The position numbers and the translations under genes were made by a program. A stretch of 32,950 nt of DNA from contig JANQEB010000058.1 of NCBI GenBank assembly GCA_028278605.1, positions 1-32,950 on the forward strand, written 5' to 3'. Origin of the DNA: Candidatus Gastranaerophilales bacterium. Lineage in GTDB: Bacteria > Cyanobacteriota > Vampirovibrionia > Gastranaerophilales > UBA9971. Under the pieces are notes generated by a model, which was not told the DNA's origin, made no database searches, and saw nothing but the letters and a program-made list of their open reading frames with translations. Positions 11,867-32,950 of the stretch are shown in pieces. Within the stretch, counting starts at the first letter, position 1. Each line of letters opens with the position of its first letter.

Positions 11867-13168
11867 TTATCCTAACAATCCATACATAAAGTCTTGCTGT
11901 AAGTCGTAACCGTAGATTACATCAGCACGAATTGTAGAAGTATCATTGTTACCACCATAGTATCTGACCATACGGATAGATATTCCGGTTTCAGGATCAG
12001 TCTTAGTTCCCATATCTGCAGCAGGAACACCAAAAGGTAATGCTAATGGAGGAGCCGCAAATACAATACCGCCTTTATTGTAAGCAATATTAACTTCATA
12101 CGGAGTATCAGAAGCACCTGCCGCACTATTAGCGCTTGCTAAAGATACAGCACTAGTAACACCACCTTGAATACCAGTTGGATCACTAATATTTCTGTAT
12201 GGGTTATCGCCGCCAACATCGCTTATGATTGAAGGAGAAACAGTAATTGTAGCCTCACCCGAAACATCAGAATCAACAGCACTTGTATTTGTGATGGTAA
12301 ACTGCATAGGAATTCCTGTAGAAACATGGTCAGGACCAGGATTTACAGAAAATACACCAGCAATCTGAATTTTATCACCAGGATTAAATACTCCTGTAGT
12401 GCTTGGCTGTAAGTTTTCAATAACAATGGTATTTCCAGATGTTACTATTGTCTTTACATTACCAGCATCTACAAAACCATTTGAAGGAGTTGCAGAACTA
12501 TCACCAACACCAGCTAATTGCCTAGGTACGTAAACACTCTTATATGATTGCATATCTGCAATTCTTCCAAGCTGTCCATTCCTGGTAATATCTCTATTCA
12601 ATTGCTGATCGAATGAGTTTTGTAATGTACTTGAAGAAATAAAGCTCGAATAAGCTAAAGGACCAAATCCTATCCATCTTTCTTCAGAAGGCATTCCGAG
12701 TAAATCCATTCCAGCCGCAACATCAGAAGCATCAATATATGCACTTGGACGGGTTCCTGCTGTACCAGTAAAATAATTTATTTCTTTACCAATATCGGTA
12801 GCAAGATCTCTATCAACTTTATTAGCTAAGGCTTTAGCCATAGGAGCAACAACTCTTTCATTAAAACGATCTTTTACATCAAAAGTCATTTCACGTGAGG
12901 TTACATCTGTAGCTACATGTTTACGCTTGTCAATAGTTAGAGAGGTTGATTTCTCTTCGCGATCATCAACACTGGAAATGGTAGCACCATCACCAACATT
13001 ATAACGAACGCGTTTACGAATAGTAATAGAACCGCCAGTATCAGTATGAGCTCTAGTCATATCAGCTTCAAACTGCTTATCGGATGTGCCTACTACTAAT
13101 AGATTATTTTTAAATTCAATGAGGAAATCTTCTGCAACTTCCTGCATTGTAATATTTGTGTTTGCCAT
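11867..13168 (-). CDS. P22-like major capsid (coat) protein
   Basis: 433 aa; DTGGSITIRKRVRYNVGDGATISS...; position between scaffold and gp4-like. Confidence 0.8.
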   Translation of the reverse strand: MANTNITMQEVAEDFLIEFKNNLLVVGTSDKQFEADMTRAHTDTGGSITIRKRVRYNVGDGATISSVDDREEKSTSLTIDKRKHVATDVTSREMTFDVKDRFNERVVAPMAKALANKVDRDLATDIGKEINYFTGTAGTRPSAYIDASDVAAGMDLLGMPSEERWIGFGPLAYSSFISSSTLQNSFDQQLNRDITRNGQLGRIADMQSYKSVYVPRQLAGVGDSSATPSNGFVDAGNVKTIVTSGNTIVIENLQPSTTGVFNPGDKIQIAGVFSVNPGPDHVSTGIPMQFTITNTSAVDSDVSGEATITVSPSIISDVGGDNPYRNISDPTGIQGGVTSAVSLASANSAAGASDTPYEVNIAYNKGGIVFAAPPLALPFGVPAADMGTKTDPETGISIRMVRYYGGNNDTSTIRADVIYGYDLQQDFMYGLLG

Positions 13169-13218: not shown

Positions 13219-14097
13219 CTACCTATCAAACTGTTGTGCTAGTTTCCTTCTTTGCTTTTCTAAAAAGCTCATTTCATCAACATTTTTAACATTGCCATTA
13301 CTTCTTAATGGCTCCGGTTGTGGAGTTGCAGAAGGGATCTTCTTTGCTGAAGTCTTCCTTTTTTGCTGCAATTCCAGCACTCTAGATTGTTGTTCATAAG
13401 GATCAAGTCGTGAAATATTTAACAAAGCATTAGGATCTTCCTTAGCCATCTTGTAGAGATCTTCTATTCCGCCTTTGCTTAAAGCCGCAGCTTCTAGCAT
13501 TTCTTTCGAAATATTAACACTCTTCAATACAGGGCCAAGATCCTCAAACTCAACAGCACAATCATCAATTTGATCTAAGAGTCGATCGCTATACTGCGAA
13601 CTATTAGATACATTTGGTGATTGATTAACACTGCCTCCTTCATATCCCGACTGAGTTGCCGTCGTACCAGGAACACCGTGTTGCTCTATCGCCTGCAAAG
13701 CAGAATTAATTAAAGAGCTGTATTGCTCTCTAGTAGTATCTTTATGTATCCAACCTAAAACATTATCCCAAATATGATCAGCACTTGGAGCAATTGACTG
13801 CTGAGCCTGTTGCTGTGCTAATCCCTGTGCGGAATTTTGCTGAGTCTGTGCAAGTTTCTGCGCATATTCAGCCTCAAGTTTTCTACGCGCCCTTCTTTCT
13901 GCTTTAGCCGCCGTTTTAGCCTCTTTACGATTAAACTCTTCTTTCGTAAAAATAATCTTATCTTCCGAAGACAGTTTAGCTTCTTCGTTTTCAGAATTAT
14001 CTTCTGAGGTCTCAACAGGGGAAGCAGAATCGACACTATCTTCTACCTGTTCAATACTTTCGCCAGGATTATCCTGGCTTGTAACTTCATCACTCAT
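13219..14097 (-). CDS. Scaffolding protein
   Basis: 292 aa, Glu/Gln-rich coiled coil, basic C-terminus (FLEKQRRKLAQQFDR); directly upstream of coat; SD GAAGGAGAAAAC. Confidence 0.7.
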   Translation of the reverse strand: MSDEVTSQDNPGESIEQVEDSVDSASPVETSEDNSENEEAKLSSEDKIIFTKEEFNRKEAKTAAKAERRARRKLEAEYAQKLAQTQQNSAQGLAQQQAQQSIAPSADHIWDNVLGWIHKDTTREQYSSLINSALQAIEQHGVPGTTATQSGYEGGSVNQSPNVSNSSQYSDRLLDQIDDCAVEFEDLGPVLKSVNISKEMLEAAALSKGGIEDLYKMAKEDPNALLNISRLDPYEQQSRVLELQQKRKTSAKKIPSATPQPEPLRSNGNVKNVDEMSFLEKQRRKLAQQFDR

Positions 14098-14206: not shown

Positions 14207-14238
14207 TGTGGATAAAGCTGTGGATAACTTGTGTATAA
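14207..14238. promoter_or_regulatory. DnaA-box cluster A: three consensus 9-mers
   Basis: TGTGGATAA 14207-14215, TGTGGATAA 14219-14227, TGTGTATAA 14230-14238 (reverse complement TTATNCACA), followed by AT-rich ttatatatacc. Confidence 0.7.
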
Positions 14239-14275: not shown

Positions 14276-14560
14276 TTAAATCTTAACTCTTCTACCATCA
14301 TGGGTAGTGATCATTTTTGCTCCAGATTTCCTTAATACCCTATCAGCTCTTTCAAAGATTTTTTTCATCTCTGTTCTGCTTAAAGTTCCCTTATTAAATC
14401 CTTGTCTAGCTCTTGCTTTAGCATTTATTGCGTGAGCTTTATCTGGAATTGGAAATGCTCCTCGTGGCGCACCTCCTTTAGGTCCTTTTTTTGCTTTACT
14501 TGGCAACCCATACTGAGATAGTTTTAATACCTTTCTTCTTCTAGAGGTTAATTTGGCCAT
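14276..14560 (-). CDS. Small basic phage protein between portal and scaffold
   Basis: 94 aa, Lys/Arg/Ala-rich; start overlaps the 3' end of the portal gene. Confidence 0.7.
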   Translation of the reverse strand: MAKLTSRRRKVLKLSQYGLPSKAKKGPKGGAPRGAFPIPDKAHAINAKARARQGFNKGTLSRTEMKKIFERADRVLRKSGAKMITTHDGRRVKI

Positions 14561-16679
14561 TCTGCTGTTCTCCTTTTGATAATGTTGTTAATGTTTTTAA
14601 CACTTGTGTCTGCTCTTCTAATTGTGCTTTGTCTTCTTCCGCCTGAATACGTCTACTTTCCTGAACTCCTTTTACTGCTGCTTCAGCTTGATTAGTCTGC
14701 GCATTTAGCATATTAGCAAGCGCGGTTATTCTTGATGCCATTGCCTTTACTCTGTCATCTTGAGCTGACATATGATCAAGTATCATATCTTGCTGTTTTT
14801 TCTGCAGATCTAATTGTTGAGATGCAATTTGTAACTGCGCCATCTGCTGCTGTATTTCTTGTTGCGGATTTTGTTGCGATTTTTGAGCGTTCTGGATCAC
14901 TATTGGATCTTTTGATCCCTCTAGCGCAGCTATTTGAGGAATACCAAAACGCTGGATTCTCTCAACAAGTTGTGGTCCTTGCTGCAAATCAAGATTCTTA
15001 ATAATAAGATCGCTAGTAAGTTGTGCGAACTGTGGATTATTGCGCGCAAACTCTAATAATTTAGCTGCATTTTCACTCTGCTGTATTTCAAAACTAGAGC
15101 CAACTTGAACCCTAACATTAAAAAATGCTTCTTTATCAGGAATTTGAGCGGTATTTGCACTGTTAATAGGAATCATATCCTCTTTGCCATCTTTTGTGGT
15201 TATACTAACTACTCTTTCTGAATCATATAATTTAGGGATAAGATCAACAATAACCCTAGCACCAGATTCAATAGCTTTTTCTGCGTTAACGAAGAACTCT
15301 TTCACATTCAAATTTCCACCACGCTGACGATTAGCTATTGCTATTCCACTTACTTCATTTCCTTGTGCCCCCATATTAGGATCAAATCTTCCAGGAATCA
15401 TCTGTAGATCTTCTAATGATCTATTCATCTCAGCTTGTAGATCATTTCCAATACTTTGGGCAGGAATAACAATTGGAACTTCACCATTCGTGCCTCTTTT
15501 ATAAGGCAACGCTGATTTTGCAATATGAGGATTACGCCATTCATTTTCATATCCTGCAATATTTTCTGGCGTCACTAAAAATTTCTCAAACCTGGTTAGC
15601 TTTAATCTATATAAATATTCACTTCTAGCGTAATTATATGATCTTTGGGCATCCTTCATCCATGCCACTAATCCGTAAGTTCTTTCACGTCCTTTAACCC
15701 ATTTAATATTGCCACCCTGAAAAATTATAGGAAGTCTTTTTCCGTCCCATTCACACCGCTCTAGAATTTCTGTACGAGATACCCTATAAAATATAATCCT
15801 ATAGTCCTCGTGAGTTTCTAATTTAACTATTTCATATTCATCAACTGGAGTGGATGTATCGCCTCCCGGGAACTTTTTCTTTAAGATATTTAATTCTTTA
15901 TTCTTTTGTTTAACTATTTCTTCAGCATTATCTCCATCGATAACACTTCCATCATTTAATAGAGCTACCTTTATTTTAAAAGGAACTTTTTCCCAATAAT
16001 CTACTACTGTAACTTGATCTTCAGTGACCCAAGTAAAATATTCATAATTTTCAAGATAATCGCTTGCATCAGGTATTTGCGCTCCGGGATAGCGATTACT
16101 AAATTCTTTTTTTGACATAGTCACAGTTGTTCCGCAACAGTTACCATCAGATTTATCTACAAGTCTAGCAATAGGATCCCAGAAACAAGTTGTGGGATCA
16201 TAAACGGACTCATATCTTGGTACTTGCTGAAAGCTCCCAGCCTTTTCACGCTCAACAACTATCCTAAAAGCTCCATATCCTCCAATAATAGCATTTTCTA
16301 GCGCGGTCTGATAAACAACATCATTTCTTGAATCAAAAGAAATATGTCGCGTCATATTAGTTATTAGATCTATTGATTGTTGGTCAACTTCAGTAAAATG
16401 CTCGGATCGTACTTCTAAATCAGGGGTATTCTGCGCGAACTCAGCTGATAAATTAGTAATATATCTTGGGAGCATATTAAATGTAAGTCTAGGTCTATGA
16501 TCTAGATCATATTCTTTAATCTCTCCGTCAGTCCATTGCCCATCCTCTAAGTAGACAAATTCCATTGTTTTTCTAAAGCGGTGATTATTTTCTGAATAAT
16601 ACTCAAACCATTCCGATACACGCTTTTGAATGCGCGATAAAATTTCATTATCAAGTGTTTTTTGCGATTTTCTAGCCAT
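14541..16679 (-). CDS. P22-like portal protein
   Basis: ~712 aa from ATG 16679 (MARKSQKTLDNEIL...). The ORF-track start at 16700 is a TTG; ATG 16679 has AAAGGGA upstream. RPRLTFNMLPRYITNLSAEFAQNTPD...RSYNYARSEYLYR are P22-portal-like. Confidence 0.88.
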   Translation of the reverse strand: MARKSQKTLDNEILSRIQKRVSEWFEYYSENNHRFRKTMEFVYLEDGQWTDGEIKEYDLDHRPRLTFNMLPRYITNLSAEFAQNTPDLEVRSEHFTEVDQQSIDLITNMTRHISFDSRNDVVYQTALENAIIGGYGAFRIVVEREKAGSFQQVPRYESVYDPTTCFWDPIARLVDKSDGNCCGTTVTMSKKEFSNRYPGAQIPDASDYLENYEYFTWVTEDQVTVVDYWEKVPFKIKVALLNDGSVIDGDNAEEIVKQKNKELNILKKKFPGGDTSTPVDEYEIVKLETHEDYRIIFYRVSRTEILERCEWDGKRLPIIFQGGNIKWVKGRERTYGLVAWMKDAQRSYNYARSEYLYRLKLTRFEKFLVTPENIAGYENEWRNPHIAKSALPYKRGTNGEVPIVIPAQSIGNDLQAEMNRSLEDLQMIPGRFDPNMGAQGNEVSGIAIANRQRGGNLNVKEFFVNAEKAIESGARVIVDLIPKLYDSERVVSITTKDGKEDMIPINSANTAQIPDKEAFFNVRVQVGSSFEIQQSENAAKLLEFARNNPQFAQLTSDLIIKNLDLQQGPQLVERIQRFGIPQIAALEGSKDPIVIQNAQKSQQNPQQEIQQQMAQLQIASQQLDLQKKQQDMILDHMSAQDDRVKAMASRITALANMLNAQTNQAEAAVKGVQESRRIQAEEDKAQLEEQTQVLKTLTTLSKGEQQNGQINL

Positions 16680-16708
16680 TACGTTATCCCTTTGGTTCAA
16701 AATAAATA

Positions 16709-16738
16709 ATTATACCACCTTTTAGTGCTATCTGTGAA
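16709..16738 (-). promoter_or_regulatory. Predicted portal promoter: -35 TTCACA, 18-bp spacer, extended -10 TGGTATAAT
   Basis: Minus strand TTCACA (16738-16733) ... TATAAT (16714-16709); ~23-nt leader to ATG 16679. Confidence 0.55.
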
Positions 16739-16773
16739 TAACTTGTGGATAACTTTTAAATAACTGTGGATAA
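16733..16773. promoter_or_regulatory. DnaA-box cluster B: three consensus 9-mers
   Basis: TGTGAATAA 16733-16741, TGTGGATAA 16744-16752, TGTGGATAA 16765-16773 (reverse complement TTATNCACA); starts 11 and 21 bp apart. Confidence 0.7.
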
Positions 16774-16774
16774 C

Positions 16775-18253
16775 TTAATATTTTATAGTCTGGAAAAATG
16801 CTTTTGGATCAAATGATGATGTGTTTGCAACGGTAGCTAAAAAGTTTATCGCTTGAGATGTTGAATCCACCCAGTCATCATGAACATCATTAGGAAATGA
16901 TATTAGTTCTTGTATATATTCTGTTAAATCCTGGTCTTTTGGAAGATAAACCATTTTAGTTGCGAAATATGGCGTTGCAGAATTTGCTCGGGCTATTTTA
17001 TCTCCCTGTGGTTTAACAGCTAATATCGGGTATTTAAACTCTCTTCTTAGCTCTTGAAATAATGATTGTCCGCTTGCTTTATCCTCTACAACCACAATGT
17101 TTGGCTTCCACTTTATGGCGAACTGATCCGCTAACTGTTTTAGCTCTGGGAATTCAACCTTTCCACGCCATGCCTCAATAAGATAAATCTTATTGCCTAT
17201 TCTCCCCCAGCATGTCATAGCTGAATAGTCATTATCTTCACCTTTCTTAAAAGCTGTGTCCCATGACTGCAAGATATAATCAAATGTACCTGGATTGCCT
17301 GTATAAAATTGAATGTCATCTTCCTTAAATATATTGCCGCCTTCTCTAACCGGCCTTTGCTGTAATTGTCCTGGAACATTCACTGGGCCAAGACCAATTT
17401 TTAATTCATTCAATATTTCTGGTGTAATGGCATCCCAAACTATTTGACCTTCTTTAGTTCTTGGGTCTTCAAATATAGGTGTTATGCATTTGCGTTCTAG
17501 CTCAAATTCCATCGGTAGGCATAAATGAATAACATCTTCATGTTCTAAAAGATAACCAGATAAATCCATTTTATTTAGTCTTTGCATGATCACAATAAAT
17601 GATCTCTCTGATTGCAAGTTACGTCTGGTAGTTACAGTTGAGCTATACCATTCATTAACATTAGTAATAGCATTGGTGTTTAATGAGTCATCAGCATCTA
17701 AAGGATCATCAATCATTACAGTATCACCACCCTCACCAGTTAATAATCCACCGATAGAAAAAGCTGTTCTATTACCGCCTTTATCATTCTCGTATCTAGA
17801 TTTCTGGTTCTGATCACCACATAGATTAAATATATGCCCCCAGTATTTTTGATACCATTGTGATTTTATGACTTGACGGCTTTTACGAGTATCGCGTATT
17901 GCTAGTTCTTTACCATGAGATCCAGTCAAAAATCTATGCTGTGGCTTTTTTATCCATACCCACGCAGGGTATAGCACAGAAACTAAAAGAGACTTACCTA
18001 ACCTAGGAGGAATATTAATTATTAGCTTATTAAACTTTCCATTAAACACAGCTTCAAGATGATCACATACAGCTTTGATATGCCATCCATCAACAAAAGG
18101 GGTAGGATCAATAGTATGCCATGCTTGCTTTACAAACTCATAAAAAGAATCTTCTGCTTTTTTTCTTAACGCTTGCTCTTCTTCCGGTAATTGACTAACT
18201 TGGCATTCATTTAATAACTCTTGAGCTTTTTTAATTAGTGCGGTTCGTCTCAT
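16775..18253 (-). CDS. Terminase large subunit
   Basis: 492 aa; Walker A-like PPRLGKSLLVSVLYPAWVW, VMIDDPL, nuclease domain SWDTAFKKGEDNDYSAMTCWG...VVEDKASG. Confidence 0.95.
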   Translation of the reverse strand: MRRTALIKKAQELLNECQVSQLPEEEQALRKKAEDSFYEFVKQAWHTIDPTPFVDGWHIKAVCDHLEAVFNGKFNKLIINIPPRLGKSLLVSVLYPAWVWIKKPQHRFLTGSHGKELAIRDTRKSRQVIKSQWYQKYWGHIFNLCGDQNQKSRYENDKGGNRTAFSIGGLLTGEGGDTVMIDDPLDADDSLNTNAITNVNEWYSSTVTTRRNLQSERSFIVIMQRLNKMDLSGYLLEHEDVIHLCLPMEFELERKCITPIFEDPRTKEGQIVWDAITPEILNELKIGLGPVNVPGQLQQRPVREGGNIFKEDDIQFYTGNPGTFDYILQSWDTAFKKGEDNDYSAMTCWGRIGNKIYLIEAWRGKVEFPELKQLADQFAIKWKPNIVVVEDKASGQSLFQELRREFKYPILAVKPQGDKIARANSATPYFATKMVYLPKDQDLTEYIQELISFPNDVHDDWVDSTSQAINFLATVANTSSFDPKAFFQTIKY

Positions 18254-19212: not shown

Positions 19213-19355
19213 CCATATGGGCCGATAAACACAAAAAAATATTGTGTCATAGGAGCTAACACGTAGTTACGTAGATACCAATTAAAATTTATTTACTTAC
19301 GAAATTGTTATTAAAGGGAATAGCGGTTAGCTTTAATTAGGTTGCCTTATATAAA

Positions 19356-19382
19356 AACCCCAGATTTTTTAGGTCTGGGGTT
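19356..19382 (-). terminator. Rho-independent terminator for the upstream minus-strand operon
   Basis: Minus strand AACCCCAGACCTAAAAAATCTGGGGTTTTTAT: 9-bp stem followed by a U run. Confidence 0.85.
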
Positions 19383-19460
19383 CAACAAGGATTATATATT
19401 ATAAAATGAAAGAAAATAAAAATATGTTACTATGTTTTCCGTAGTGCATTATATCTTATT

Positions 19461-19733
19461 TTATACCTTTGTCAAGCTTTTACTCTTATTTTTTCTTTTT
19501 GCTTGTTTTTGCATATTATTACTTTGGCCAAGCTTATACTTTAAATCTTCAATTTTAGCCCCCAAATCCTGGTTATCAGCCTCTAGCTCATCAATAACAT
19601 AATTAGCATGTTTTAGCAGTGATAATAATACTTCAGCGTCATATTCGTTGATAAAGCGTTGATTGCCAATAGTAACTAGCATTCCTGTATCTTCCAAGTT
19701 GTAGTTATCTGGTAGCAATTTAATTCTTGCCAT
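19461..19733 (-). CDS. Hypothetical coiled-coil protein
   Basis: 90-aa ORF, abuts 19733..20296. Confidence 0.55.
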   Translation of the reverse strand: MARIKLLPDNYNLEDTGMLVTIGNQRFINEYDAEVLLSLLKHANYVIDELEADNQDLGAKIEDLKYKLGQSNNMQKQAKRKNKSKSLTKV

Positions 19734-20296
19734 TATTTTACCTCCGGCTGTTCAATTAACTCTAACGCTTTATCTATCATCTTTTGCTCTATTTCCACAA
19801 CATCCCATACTGCGGCCTTAGCAGCCCAATAAGAATCCTCAGCAACTTGAGAAACAGCCCAAGATGCAGCAGAAGTAGCAGAAGCACCAGCACAGCAAGC
19901 AGCCCGATAAGCAGCATAAGCAGCCCAATAAGCAGCCCTAGCAGTCCAATAAGCAGCCCTAGCAGTCCGATAAGCAGCCTTAGCAGCCTCTCTCAGCTCT
20001 TCACGCGTAGATTCTGGGTTCTCAGCCACTTCGATACAAAGACGTACAGTGCTATTATCTGGATATTCTGCCTCCCAGATAGGTAGCACTAACCTTGCGC
20101 AGTAACATCCAAAATCTACTAAGCTCCTACCCTTTAACAGATGCGAAAGCAGCCAAATCCAACCGATTTTACCCTCTTCAACAAGCATCTTAATCAACTC
20201 TTTATGTTCAATGCTGGTTAGATTCTTAGCTTTGAACCAATCTATTCCTTCTTTGCAGGCATTATGCTTTTTAAGCCATCTCTTAGTTATCTTCAT
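19733..20296 (-). CDS. MKITKRW-family Ala-rich repeat protein (paralogue 1; Imm-5-like/putative immunity protein-like N-terminal region)
   Basis: 187 aa; MKITKRWLKKHNACKEGIDWFKAK...CARLVLPIWEAEYPD + AAYWTARAAYWAAYAAY repeats + WDVVEIEQKMIDKALELI. Confidence 0.7.
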   Translation of the reverse strand: MKITKRWLKKHNACKEGIDWFKAKNLTSIEHKELIKMLVEEGKIGWIWLLSHLLKGRSLVDFGCYCARLVLPIWEAEYPDNSTVRLCIEVAENPESTREELREAAKAAYRTARAAYWTARAAYWAAYAAYRAACCAGASATSAASWAVSQVAEDSYWAAKAAVWDVVEIEQKMIDKALELIEQPEVK

Positions 20297-21554: not shown

Positions 21555-22007
21555 CTACATCCCAGCCTTAGCAGCCCAATAAGCAGCATAAGCAGCCCCA
21601 TTAGCAGCCCAATAAGCAGCCTTAGCAGCCGCATTAGCAGCACCTTTAGCAGCCCAATAATCAGTAGAAGCAACCCAATAAGCAGTAGAAGCAGCATCCA
21701 TCAGTTCTTCTGATGTAGATTCTGGGTTTTCCGCTATTTCTAAACAATGACGCAGACGGTTATCTTCTGGGTTCTCTGCCTCCCAGATAGGTAGCACTAA
21801 CCTTGCGCAGTAACATCCAAAATCTACTAAGCTCCTACCCTTTAACAGATGCGAAATCAGCCACCAAATCCAACCGATTTTACCCTCTTTAGCTAGAAGC
21901 TTAATCAACTCTTCGTGTTCAATGCTCTTTAGCTTCCTAGCTTCAAACCACTCCAAACCTTCCTTGCAGGCATCTTGCTCTTCTAGCCATCTCTTAGTTA
22001 TCTTCAT
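21555..22007 (-). pseudogene. MKITKRW-family paralogue 2, frameshifted near the end of the Ala-rich tract
   Basis: ORF ends ...AAYWAAKAGM*; the family C-terminus WDVVEIKQKITDKGLELIKQQENEE* is intact in another frame at 21487..21564. Confidence 0.65.
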
Positions 22008-24259: not shown

Positions 24260-24817
24260 CTAGTCCTGTTGTTTAATTAACTCTAAACCTTTATCTACTA
24301 TCTTTTGCTCAATTTCCGCAACATCCCAGCCTGCTTGAATAGCAGCCGTAGAAGCAGCAGAAGCAGCATAAGCAGCCCAAAAAGCGGCCTTAGCAGCAGC
24401 AGAAGCAATCCCATAAGCAGCAGAAGCAGCAGAAGCAAAAGCAGCAGAAGCAGCAGAAGCAGCAGAAGCAGCAGAAGCAAAAGCAGCAGCCTCAGCAGCA
24501 GCATCCATCAGTTCTTCTGATGTAGATTCTGGGTTCTCCGCTATTTCTAAACAATGACGCACACTGGTATCATCTGGATTTCCTGCTTCCCAGATAGGCA
24601 ATACCAGCCTTGCACAATAGCATCCCCAATTTACTAAGATTCGGCCCTTCAACAGATGTACAATCAGCCACCAAATCTCATTGAACCTACCATCTTTAGC
24701 TAGGAGCTTAATCAACTCTTCGTGTTCAATGCTCTTTAGGTTCTTAGTCTTGAACCACTTCAACCCTTCTTTGCAGGCATTATGTCCTTCTAACCATCTC
24801 TTAGTTATCTTCATCAT
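24260..24817 (-). CDS. MKITKRW-family Ala-rich repeat protein (paralogue 3)
   Basis: Likely start MMKITKRW at 24817; ASAASAASAAFASAA tract; ends GWDVAEIEQKIVDKGLELIKQQD. Confidence 0.7.
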   Translation of the reverse strand: MMKITKRWLEGHNACKEGLKWFKTKNLKSIEHEELIKLLAKDGRFNEIWWLIVHLLKGRILVNWGCYCARLVLPIWEAGNPDDTSVRHCLEIAENPESTSEELMDAAAEAAAFASAASAASAASAAFASAASAAYGIASAAAKAAFWAAYAASAASTAAIQAGWDVAEIEQKIVDKGLELIKQQD

Positions 24818-25049
24818 TCTTCCTAAACTCATTAAGCGCACGCTGTATAACACACTCAGCAGCACGGTATTTACGCTTTACAGCTCTAAATATGGCTAGA
24901 GCCTGCCCTTCGGTTAGCTGTCTATTGATACGCACATAACCGTTAACAGTTTTTGAATGCAATCCTATAGCATCAGCCATTAAATATTGAGGTATATGGT
25001 AGTTATTATATAGTTGTTTAAATGTAAGTTTTAGTTTTTTATTGTTCAT
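24801..25049 (-). CDS. Small HTH DNA-binding protein (Cro/XRE-like)
   Basis: 82 aa; FKQLYNNYHIPQYLMADAIGLHSKTVNGYVRINRQLTEGQALAIF fits a helix-turn-helix. Confidence 0.55.
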   Translation of the reverse strand: MNNKKLKLTFKQLYNNYHIPQYLMADAIGLHSKTVNGYVRINRQLTEGQALAIFRAVKRKYRAAECVIQRALNEFRKNDEDN

Positions 25050-25051
25050 TA

Positions 25052-25585
25052 TTAACCCTCATTATCCTGTGTTTTAATTAACTGTAACGCTTTATCGATC
25101 ATCTTTTGTTTAATTTCTACTACATCCCAGCCTGCGGCCTTAGCAGCAGAAGCAGCATAAGCAGCCCAAAAAGCGGCCTTAGCAGCAGCAGAAGCAATCC
25201 CATAAGCAGCAGAAGCATCCCAATAACCAGCCCAAGAAGAAGCATCAGCAACCCAAGAAGCAGCAGAATCAGCATCATTCAGTTCTTCTGATGTGGATTC
25301 TGGGTTCTCAGCCACTTCGATACAATGACGCAGACTGTTATCTTCTGGGTTTTTCTCCTCCCAGATAGGTAGCACTAACCTTGCGCAGTAGCATCCCCAA
25401 TTTACTCGGCTTCTACCCTTTAACAGATGCGAAAGCAGCCACCAAATCTCATCGAACATACCCTCTTCAATAAGCATCTTAATTAGGTCGCCATATTCAA
25501 TATTGGTTAGAGTATGATCTTCAAACCACTCTAAGCCTTCTTTGCAGGCATTATGCTTTTTAAGCCATCTCTTAGTTATCTTCAT
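25052..25585 (-). CDS. MKITKRW-family Ala-rich repeat protein (paralogue 4)
   Basis: 177 aa; shares a 76-bp exact block with 24260..24817. Confidence 0.7.
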   Translation of the reverse strand: MKITKRWLKKHNACKEGLEWFEDHTLTNIEYGDLIKMLIEEGMFDEIWWLLSHLLKGRSRVNWGCYCARLVLPIWEEKNPEDNSLRHCIEVAENPESTSEELNDADSAASWVADASSWAGYWDASAAYGIASAAAKAAFWAAYAASAAKAAGWDVVEIKQKMIDKALQLIKTQDNEG

Positions 25586-32851: not shown

Positions 32852-32950
32852 TGCCCCTACATCAAATAATACGGAGCTTGCAGATGCATTAGTATTTAGC
32901 ATCCTATTAGCCATGAAATGGCAATCTATACTACCTGAAGTTGGGTCTAA
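32852..32950. repeat. Second copy of the 99-bp terminal direct repeat
   Basis: Identical to 1..99. Confidence 0.95.

Follow-up and report, generated by a model that had tools for sequence, protein, structure and literature searches.

The window, by which we mean the whole stretch of 32,950 nucleotides analysed here, is the complete circular genome of a phage, 32,851 bp in length as judged from its 99-bp identical ends (positions 1–99 and 32852–32950), which was assembled as a separate circular contig within a Gastranaerophilales MAG assembly. Based on the portal, the coat protein and the order of genes, the phage is P22-like, and it carries an O-like replication gene at 22.6–23.4 kb; the initiator or loader it encodes is of the O-like or DnaD-like kind. 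The packaging and head genes are listed in Table 1; for the putative scaffolding protein among them, a family search gave no match. Two clusters of DnaA boxes lie between these genes: cluster B in the gap between terL and portal, and cluster A (14207–14238), with three boxes at a spacing of 12 and 11 bp, in the portal-scaffold gap, 5′ of the scaffold gene.

Table 1. Genes, DnaA boxes and candidate promoter elements of the packaging and head region (positions in the window).
Feature	Position	Strand	Sequence or basis
Terminase large subunit (terL)	16775..18253	-	phrog_38, 1e-100
Cluster B box 3	16765..16773	-	TTATCCACA
Cluster B degenerate unit	16755..16763	-	TTATTTAAA; occupies the missing step of the register, between box 2 and box 3
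Cluster B box 2	16744..16752	-	TTATCCACA
Cluster B box 1	16733..16741	-	TTATTCACA; contains the −35 hexamer TTCACA (16738-16733)
Candidate sigma70-type promoter upstream of portal	16709..16738	-	TTCACA-18-TATAAT, 11 of 12, TG extended −10 (TGgTATAAT)
Shine-Dalgarno sequence of portal	16688..16693	-	AAAGGG
P22-like portal protein, ATG start	14541..16679	-	phrog_156, 1.2e-98; start backed by nearest relative L047
Cluster A box 3	14230..14238	-	TTATACACA
Cluster A box 2	14219..14227	-	TTATCCACA
Cluster A box 1	14207..14215	-	TTATCCACA
Putative scaffolding protein (gene after cluster A)	13219..14097	-	Position before the coat gene; synteny with annotated relatives
Major coat protein	11867..13168	-	phrog_283, 8.5e-55

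The initial annotation had described three perfect matches to the DnaA-box consensus between terL and portal. We confirm three zero-mismatch TTATNCACA boxes at 16733–16773. They share one orientation, their starts are separated by 11 and 21 bp, and they lie on the minus strand, which is the coding strand of both terL and portal. The gap itself measures 74 bp, as had been stated, only with a portal start at TTG 16700; a gap of 95 bp is more likely, since the ATG at 16679 follows a Shine-Dalgarno sequence and coincides with the portal start of L047 when the two proteins are aligned. The spacings of 11, 12 and 21 bp found in the window correspond to the same-direction, helically phased layout of an oriC-type DnaA oligomer array.

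Given that the genome is AT-rich, the clusters might be thought an artefact of chance or base composition. The window contains seven perfect boxes, compared with 1.9 expected from dinucleotide shuffles or 1.34 from a Markov-3 model, and six of the seven are grouped in the two clusters. Three same-strand boxes within 41 bp occurred in none of 2000 Markov-3 genomes, bearing out the earlier view that cluster B is beyond chance, and even two such boxes were found in just 0.05% of them. Throughout the 2.6-Mb assembly there are four same-strand pairs of TTATNCACA at most 15 nt apart, all in clusters A and B, and three copies of AGTTATCCACA, every one in the window. With the simulations, the twin cluster in the same genome and the reversed-pattern control described below all speaking against it, we reject a chance origin, to which we assign a negligible probability.

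Tandem arrays of this kind recur in IMG/VR, where 27 loci match a pattern with the 11/21 geometry and box triples with 11/12-bp spacing are present in at least 120 contigs, as opposed to one contig for the reversed pattern used as control. Among 99 non-redundant arrays pooled from both scans, the spacing peaks at 11 (138), 12 (74) and 21 bp (30), peaks that are partly ascertained because 11 and 12 were preset in the second pattern and 21 in the first; array counts also overstate independence, as some arrays share ancestry. The fifth position of the box was free in the search, apart from a C fixed in one of the three boxes of the first pattern, and its majority base is C in 81 of the 99 arrays, C being the best base for DnaA at this position (PMC5835720). 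From the motif, the register and this base preference, binding of DnaA to the arrays is the most economical reading and, in our judgement, a well supported prediction. Array-bearing cultured phages infect E. coli, Shigella, Klebsiella, Enterobacter and Lactococcus, so that use or titration of DnaA can be tested in standard strains. Literature searches within open-access papers, a set that omits most subscription journals, brought up no description of DnaA arrays in the late regions of phages.

DnaA boxes in tandem or in clusters were also seen in small ssDNA microviruses (L034, L417) and in Lactococcus 949-like phages (L035, which is Lactococcus phage 949). In T7-like phages (L036, which is the E. 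coli phage P483) they occupy the stretch that precedes the early genes. A further array (L406:6030–6115), upstream of a terL-containing block, has eight 11-bp units that grade from TTATACACA to TTATATACA; this gradient is possibly a drift of box specificity.

With respect to late genes, terL was detected independently at 15 array loci, and in 13 of these the array lies 5′ of it (one-sided p 0.004). The terL queries behind this count came from outside the array set; a version with queries taken partly from array loci was biased and was set aside. The remaining two loci, L311 and L312, belong to phages that are themselves P22-like, with portals 30–32% identical, and their arrays lie in the portal-to-scaffold gap, directly before scaffold, in the slot that cluster A occupies in the window. 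In L311 six boxes are followed by the candidate promoter TTGACA-17-TATTCT (p 0.06) and in L312 four boxes by TTGCAA-16-TATACT (p 0.22). In both, the −35 begins 3–4 bp past the last box, and the candidate promoters are individually weak. The centre of the box closest to the promoter lies ~44 bp before the predicted start, a place where an activator could also sit. L047, the nearest relative by portal (46%), has no boxes in the portal-scaffold gap and carries there instead three 12-bp direct repeats CCTAACATT (L047:4444–4481) upstream of TTGACA-17-TATAAA. In view of the boxes and promoters of L311 and L312 and the CCTAACATT repeats and promoter of L047, this gap has the look of a regulatory slot in which one operator can replace another. 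As a widespread motif, CCTAACATT was rejected, having only 5 matches.

Conservation among relatives, which had been suggested as a check on the boxes, gives a mixed picture: L311 and L312 have arrays, but box pairs are missing from L047 and from the remaining portal and terL relatives that homology searches brought up. No box pairs were detected in 160 loci of alignment-found portal and single-query terL relatives, and no tandem triplet of any kind in the 72 other portal relatives, which leaves L047 as the sole case among 73 portal loci. With portal and coat as single-sequence queries, no close relatives came to light; a portal search of 192 genomes returned the window as its only match, and a portal scan of genome contigs returned none.

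The exchangeable slot bears on the possibility that the repeats bind another protein, either a phage regulator or a host factor, whose site happens to resemble a DnaA box. The case of L047 indicates that operators of another kind can occupy the slot, in L406 TTATACACA is lengthened to TTATATACA units, and small HTH-like genes (assigned by eye) adjoin the arrays of L311 and L312. However, these genes look unlike each other and the gaps of the window contain none, while the identical 9-mer, with C preferred at position 5, appears in unrelated phages. We consider another binding protein distinctly unlikely.

Returning to DnaA as the probable ligand, the array of cluster B runs straight into the candidate promoter of portal: the −35 is formed by the last six bases of box 1, i.e. 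the final 6 bp of the array. Per genome, only 0.08 promoters that score as well and have a TG are expected. Judging from the −10, transcription would start near 16702, giving a leader of ~23 nt with AAAGGG ahead of ATG 16679. The promoter scan at cluster A gave no good neighbouring promoter comparable to that of cluster B. From the −35 overlap and the slot, control of promoters by the arrays is plausible. Repression would be its most likely sign at cluster B, where a near-consensus promoter has its −35 covered by box 1; by analogy with mioC this is the sign we prefer.

A second role that had been proposed for the boxes is titration: with rising numbers of phage copies, the arrays would sequester host DnaA and halt new rounds of host chromosome replication, without any specific effect on the nearby promoter. 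This would suit high-affinity consensus boxes, six of them clustered per genome, and the spread of arrays over phages as unrelated as microviruses, T7-like and Lactococcus phages, and the site before late genes could be merely tolerated intergenic space. Also in line with it, a 47-base consensus array query found no match at E 0.01 in 5,426 E. coli genomes. Yet a decoy could sit anywhere, whereas the arrays are predominantly 5′ of terL and share a slot in relatives; box 1 coincides with a −35; and three-box arrays make modest sinks. Titration on its own is thus a doubtful explanation, although datA-like titration may be part of the promoter-gating mechanism itself.

Taking these observations into account, we propose, with a probability of roughly 45%, that the clusters are phased host-DnaA arrays that control head-gene promoters through a repression eased by titration. 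DnaA would line up head to tail along the 11/12/21-bp array, either covering the −35 or lying against it, and the bound protein would gate the entry of RNA polymerase at the head-gene promoter. Phage replication would multiply the boxes, free or ATP-bound DnaA would fall, and repression would be relieved, so that portal and capsid proteins would be made in a burst coupled to replication. Coupling of late transcription to DnaA is the best supported of the three roles put forward by the initial annotation, being favoured by the overlap of box 1 with the −35, by arrays upstream of packaging and head genes and by the L311 and L312 arrays that abut candidate promoters. The lack of a good promoter at cluster A counts against the proposal, as do the different motif in the slot of L047, the weakness of the single promoters in L311 and L312 and, described below, the varying box direction, the scarcity of nearby promoters outside the P22-like group and the rarity of arrays in Gastranaerophilales.

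The closest parallels are in E. coli, where the mioC and dnaA promoters are repressed by DnaA and repression of mioC drops with titration and RIDA (PMC5835720). At mioC and dnaA2p, as here, boxes for DnaA lie on a sigma70 promoter or directly beside it (PMC5835720); in contrast, the arrangement described here belongs to a phage late operon and consists of a tandem array of perfect boxes. In lambda, host DnaA footprints at sites downstream of pO (PMC3985674), and the pO and pR promoters near the origin resemble our case in having host DnaA sites on phage DNA near a promoter, but the lambda sites are in the early replication region and the window arrays precede packaging and head genes. Low-affinity DnaA arrays of E. 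coli oriC consist of same-direction sites 2–3 bp apart on one face of the helix (PMC4451416); the phage arrays share these gaps and the single direction, whereas their boxes are consensus and expected to be of high affinity. The datA and DARS loci likewise have clustered DnaA boxes outside the origin, from which the phage arrays differ by their strict tandem layout; datA has an essential IHF site between its boxes (PMC5835720). Replication iterons, finally, are also short direct repeats in helical register, but the phage arrays are 6 kb from the O-like gene and their repeats match the host DnaA box.

The resemblance to oriC arrays is also what speaks for the third proposed role, a cryptic replication origin, for which host DnaA would melt one of the arrays, or the two of them, and replication would begin there through the phage helicase loader. 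The phage does encode an initiator or loader of its own, no iteron-like repeats were found in its replication region, and many of the arrays elsewhere are flanked by gene blocks that diverge from them. Nevertheless, the origin gained no positive support in the window: no GC-skew turn is seen at 14–17 kb, a weak test as skew tracks transcription here, and the sign of the skew changes near 26 kb and 30 kb, with the direction of transcription. Moreover, the two arrays are 2.5 kb apart within one operon, at a distance of 6 kb from the replication genes, and the sequence after cluster B fits a near-consensus promoter better than a known unwinding element. We therefore judge an origin at these arrays to be improbable.

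As to how far promoter gating by DnaA may extend, sigma70 promoters near arrays in the late direction are mostly absent outside the P22-like group, and consequently gating is best supported for this group only. A −10 at fixed distance beside the arrays was not seen across the 99 arrays, and the direction of the boxes relative to the gene flips from phage to phage. That many unrelated phages have independently adopted such arrays as a sensor of replication state for their packaging and head genes, late promoters being turned on without a dedicated phage late activator once multiplying phage copies titrate DnaA, is a speculation we hold to be unlikely. If it were true, phages would time the building of capsids by reading the replication-control protein of the host, an unrecognised route linking DNA replication to late gene expression.

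The assembly was assigned to Gastranaerophilales by its DnaA. Tandem boxes were present in 3 of 286 Gastranaerophilales genomes, this one included; a comparison with host oriC regions showed no clustering of boxes around dnaA in relatives, nor were there clustered boxes in this assembly outside the phage. The phage contig may have been mis-binned in the Gastranaerophilales MAG, making the host link uncertain. Because arrays are rare in Gastranaerophilales and the phage is on a separate contig, the identity of the DnaA that would bind the arrays is uncertain as well.

Two further features of the genome were observed. Four paralogous genes (19733–20296, 21555–22007, 24260–24865 and 25052–25585) encode proteins with MKITKRWL starts and Ala-rich repeated tails, one having a weak match to Imm5 below the cut-off and another matching PHROGs of unknown function. 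On the minus strand at 19352–19475, before terS, a perfect TTGACA-16-TATAAT is followed ~60 nt later by a strong terminator hairpin, a combination which resembles lambda PR′ with tR′ and suggests that the late operon is under antitermination control.
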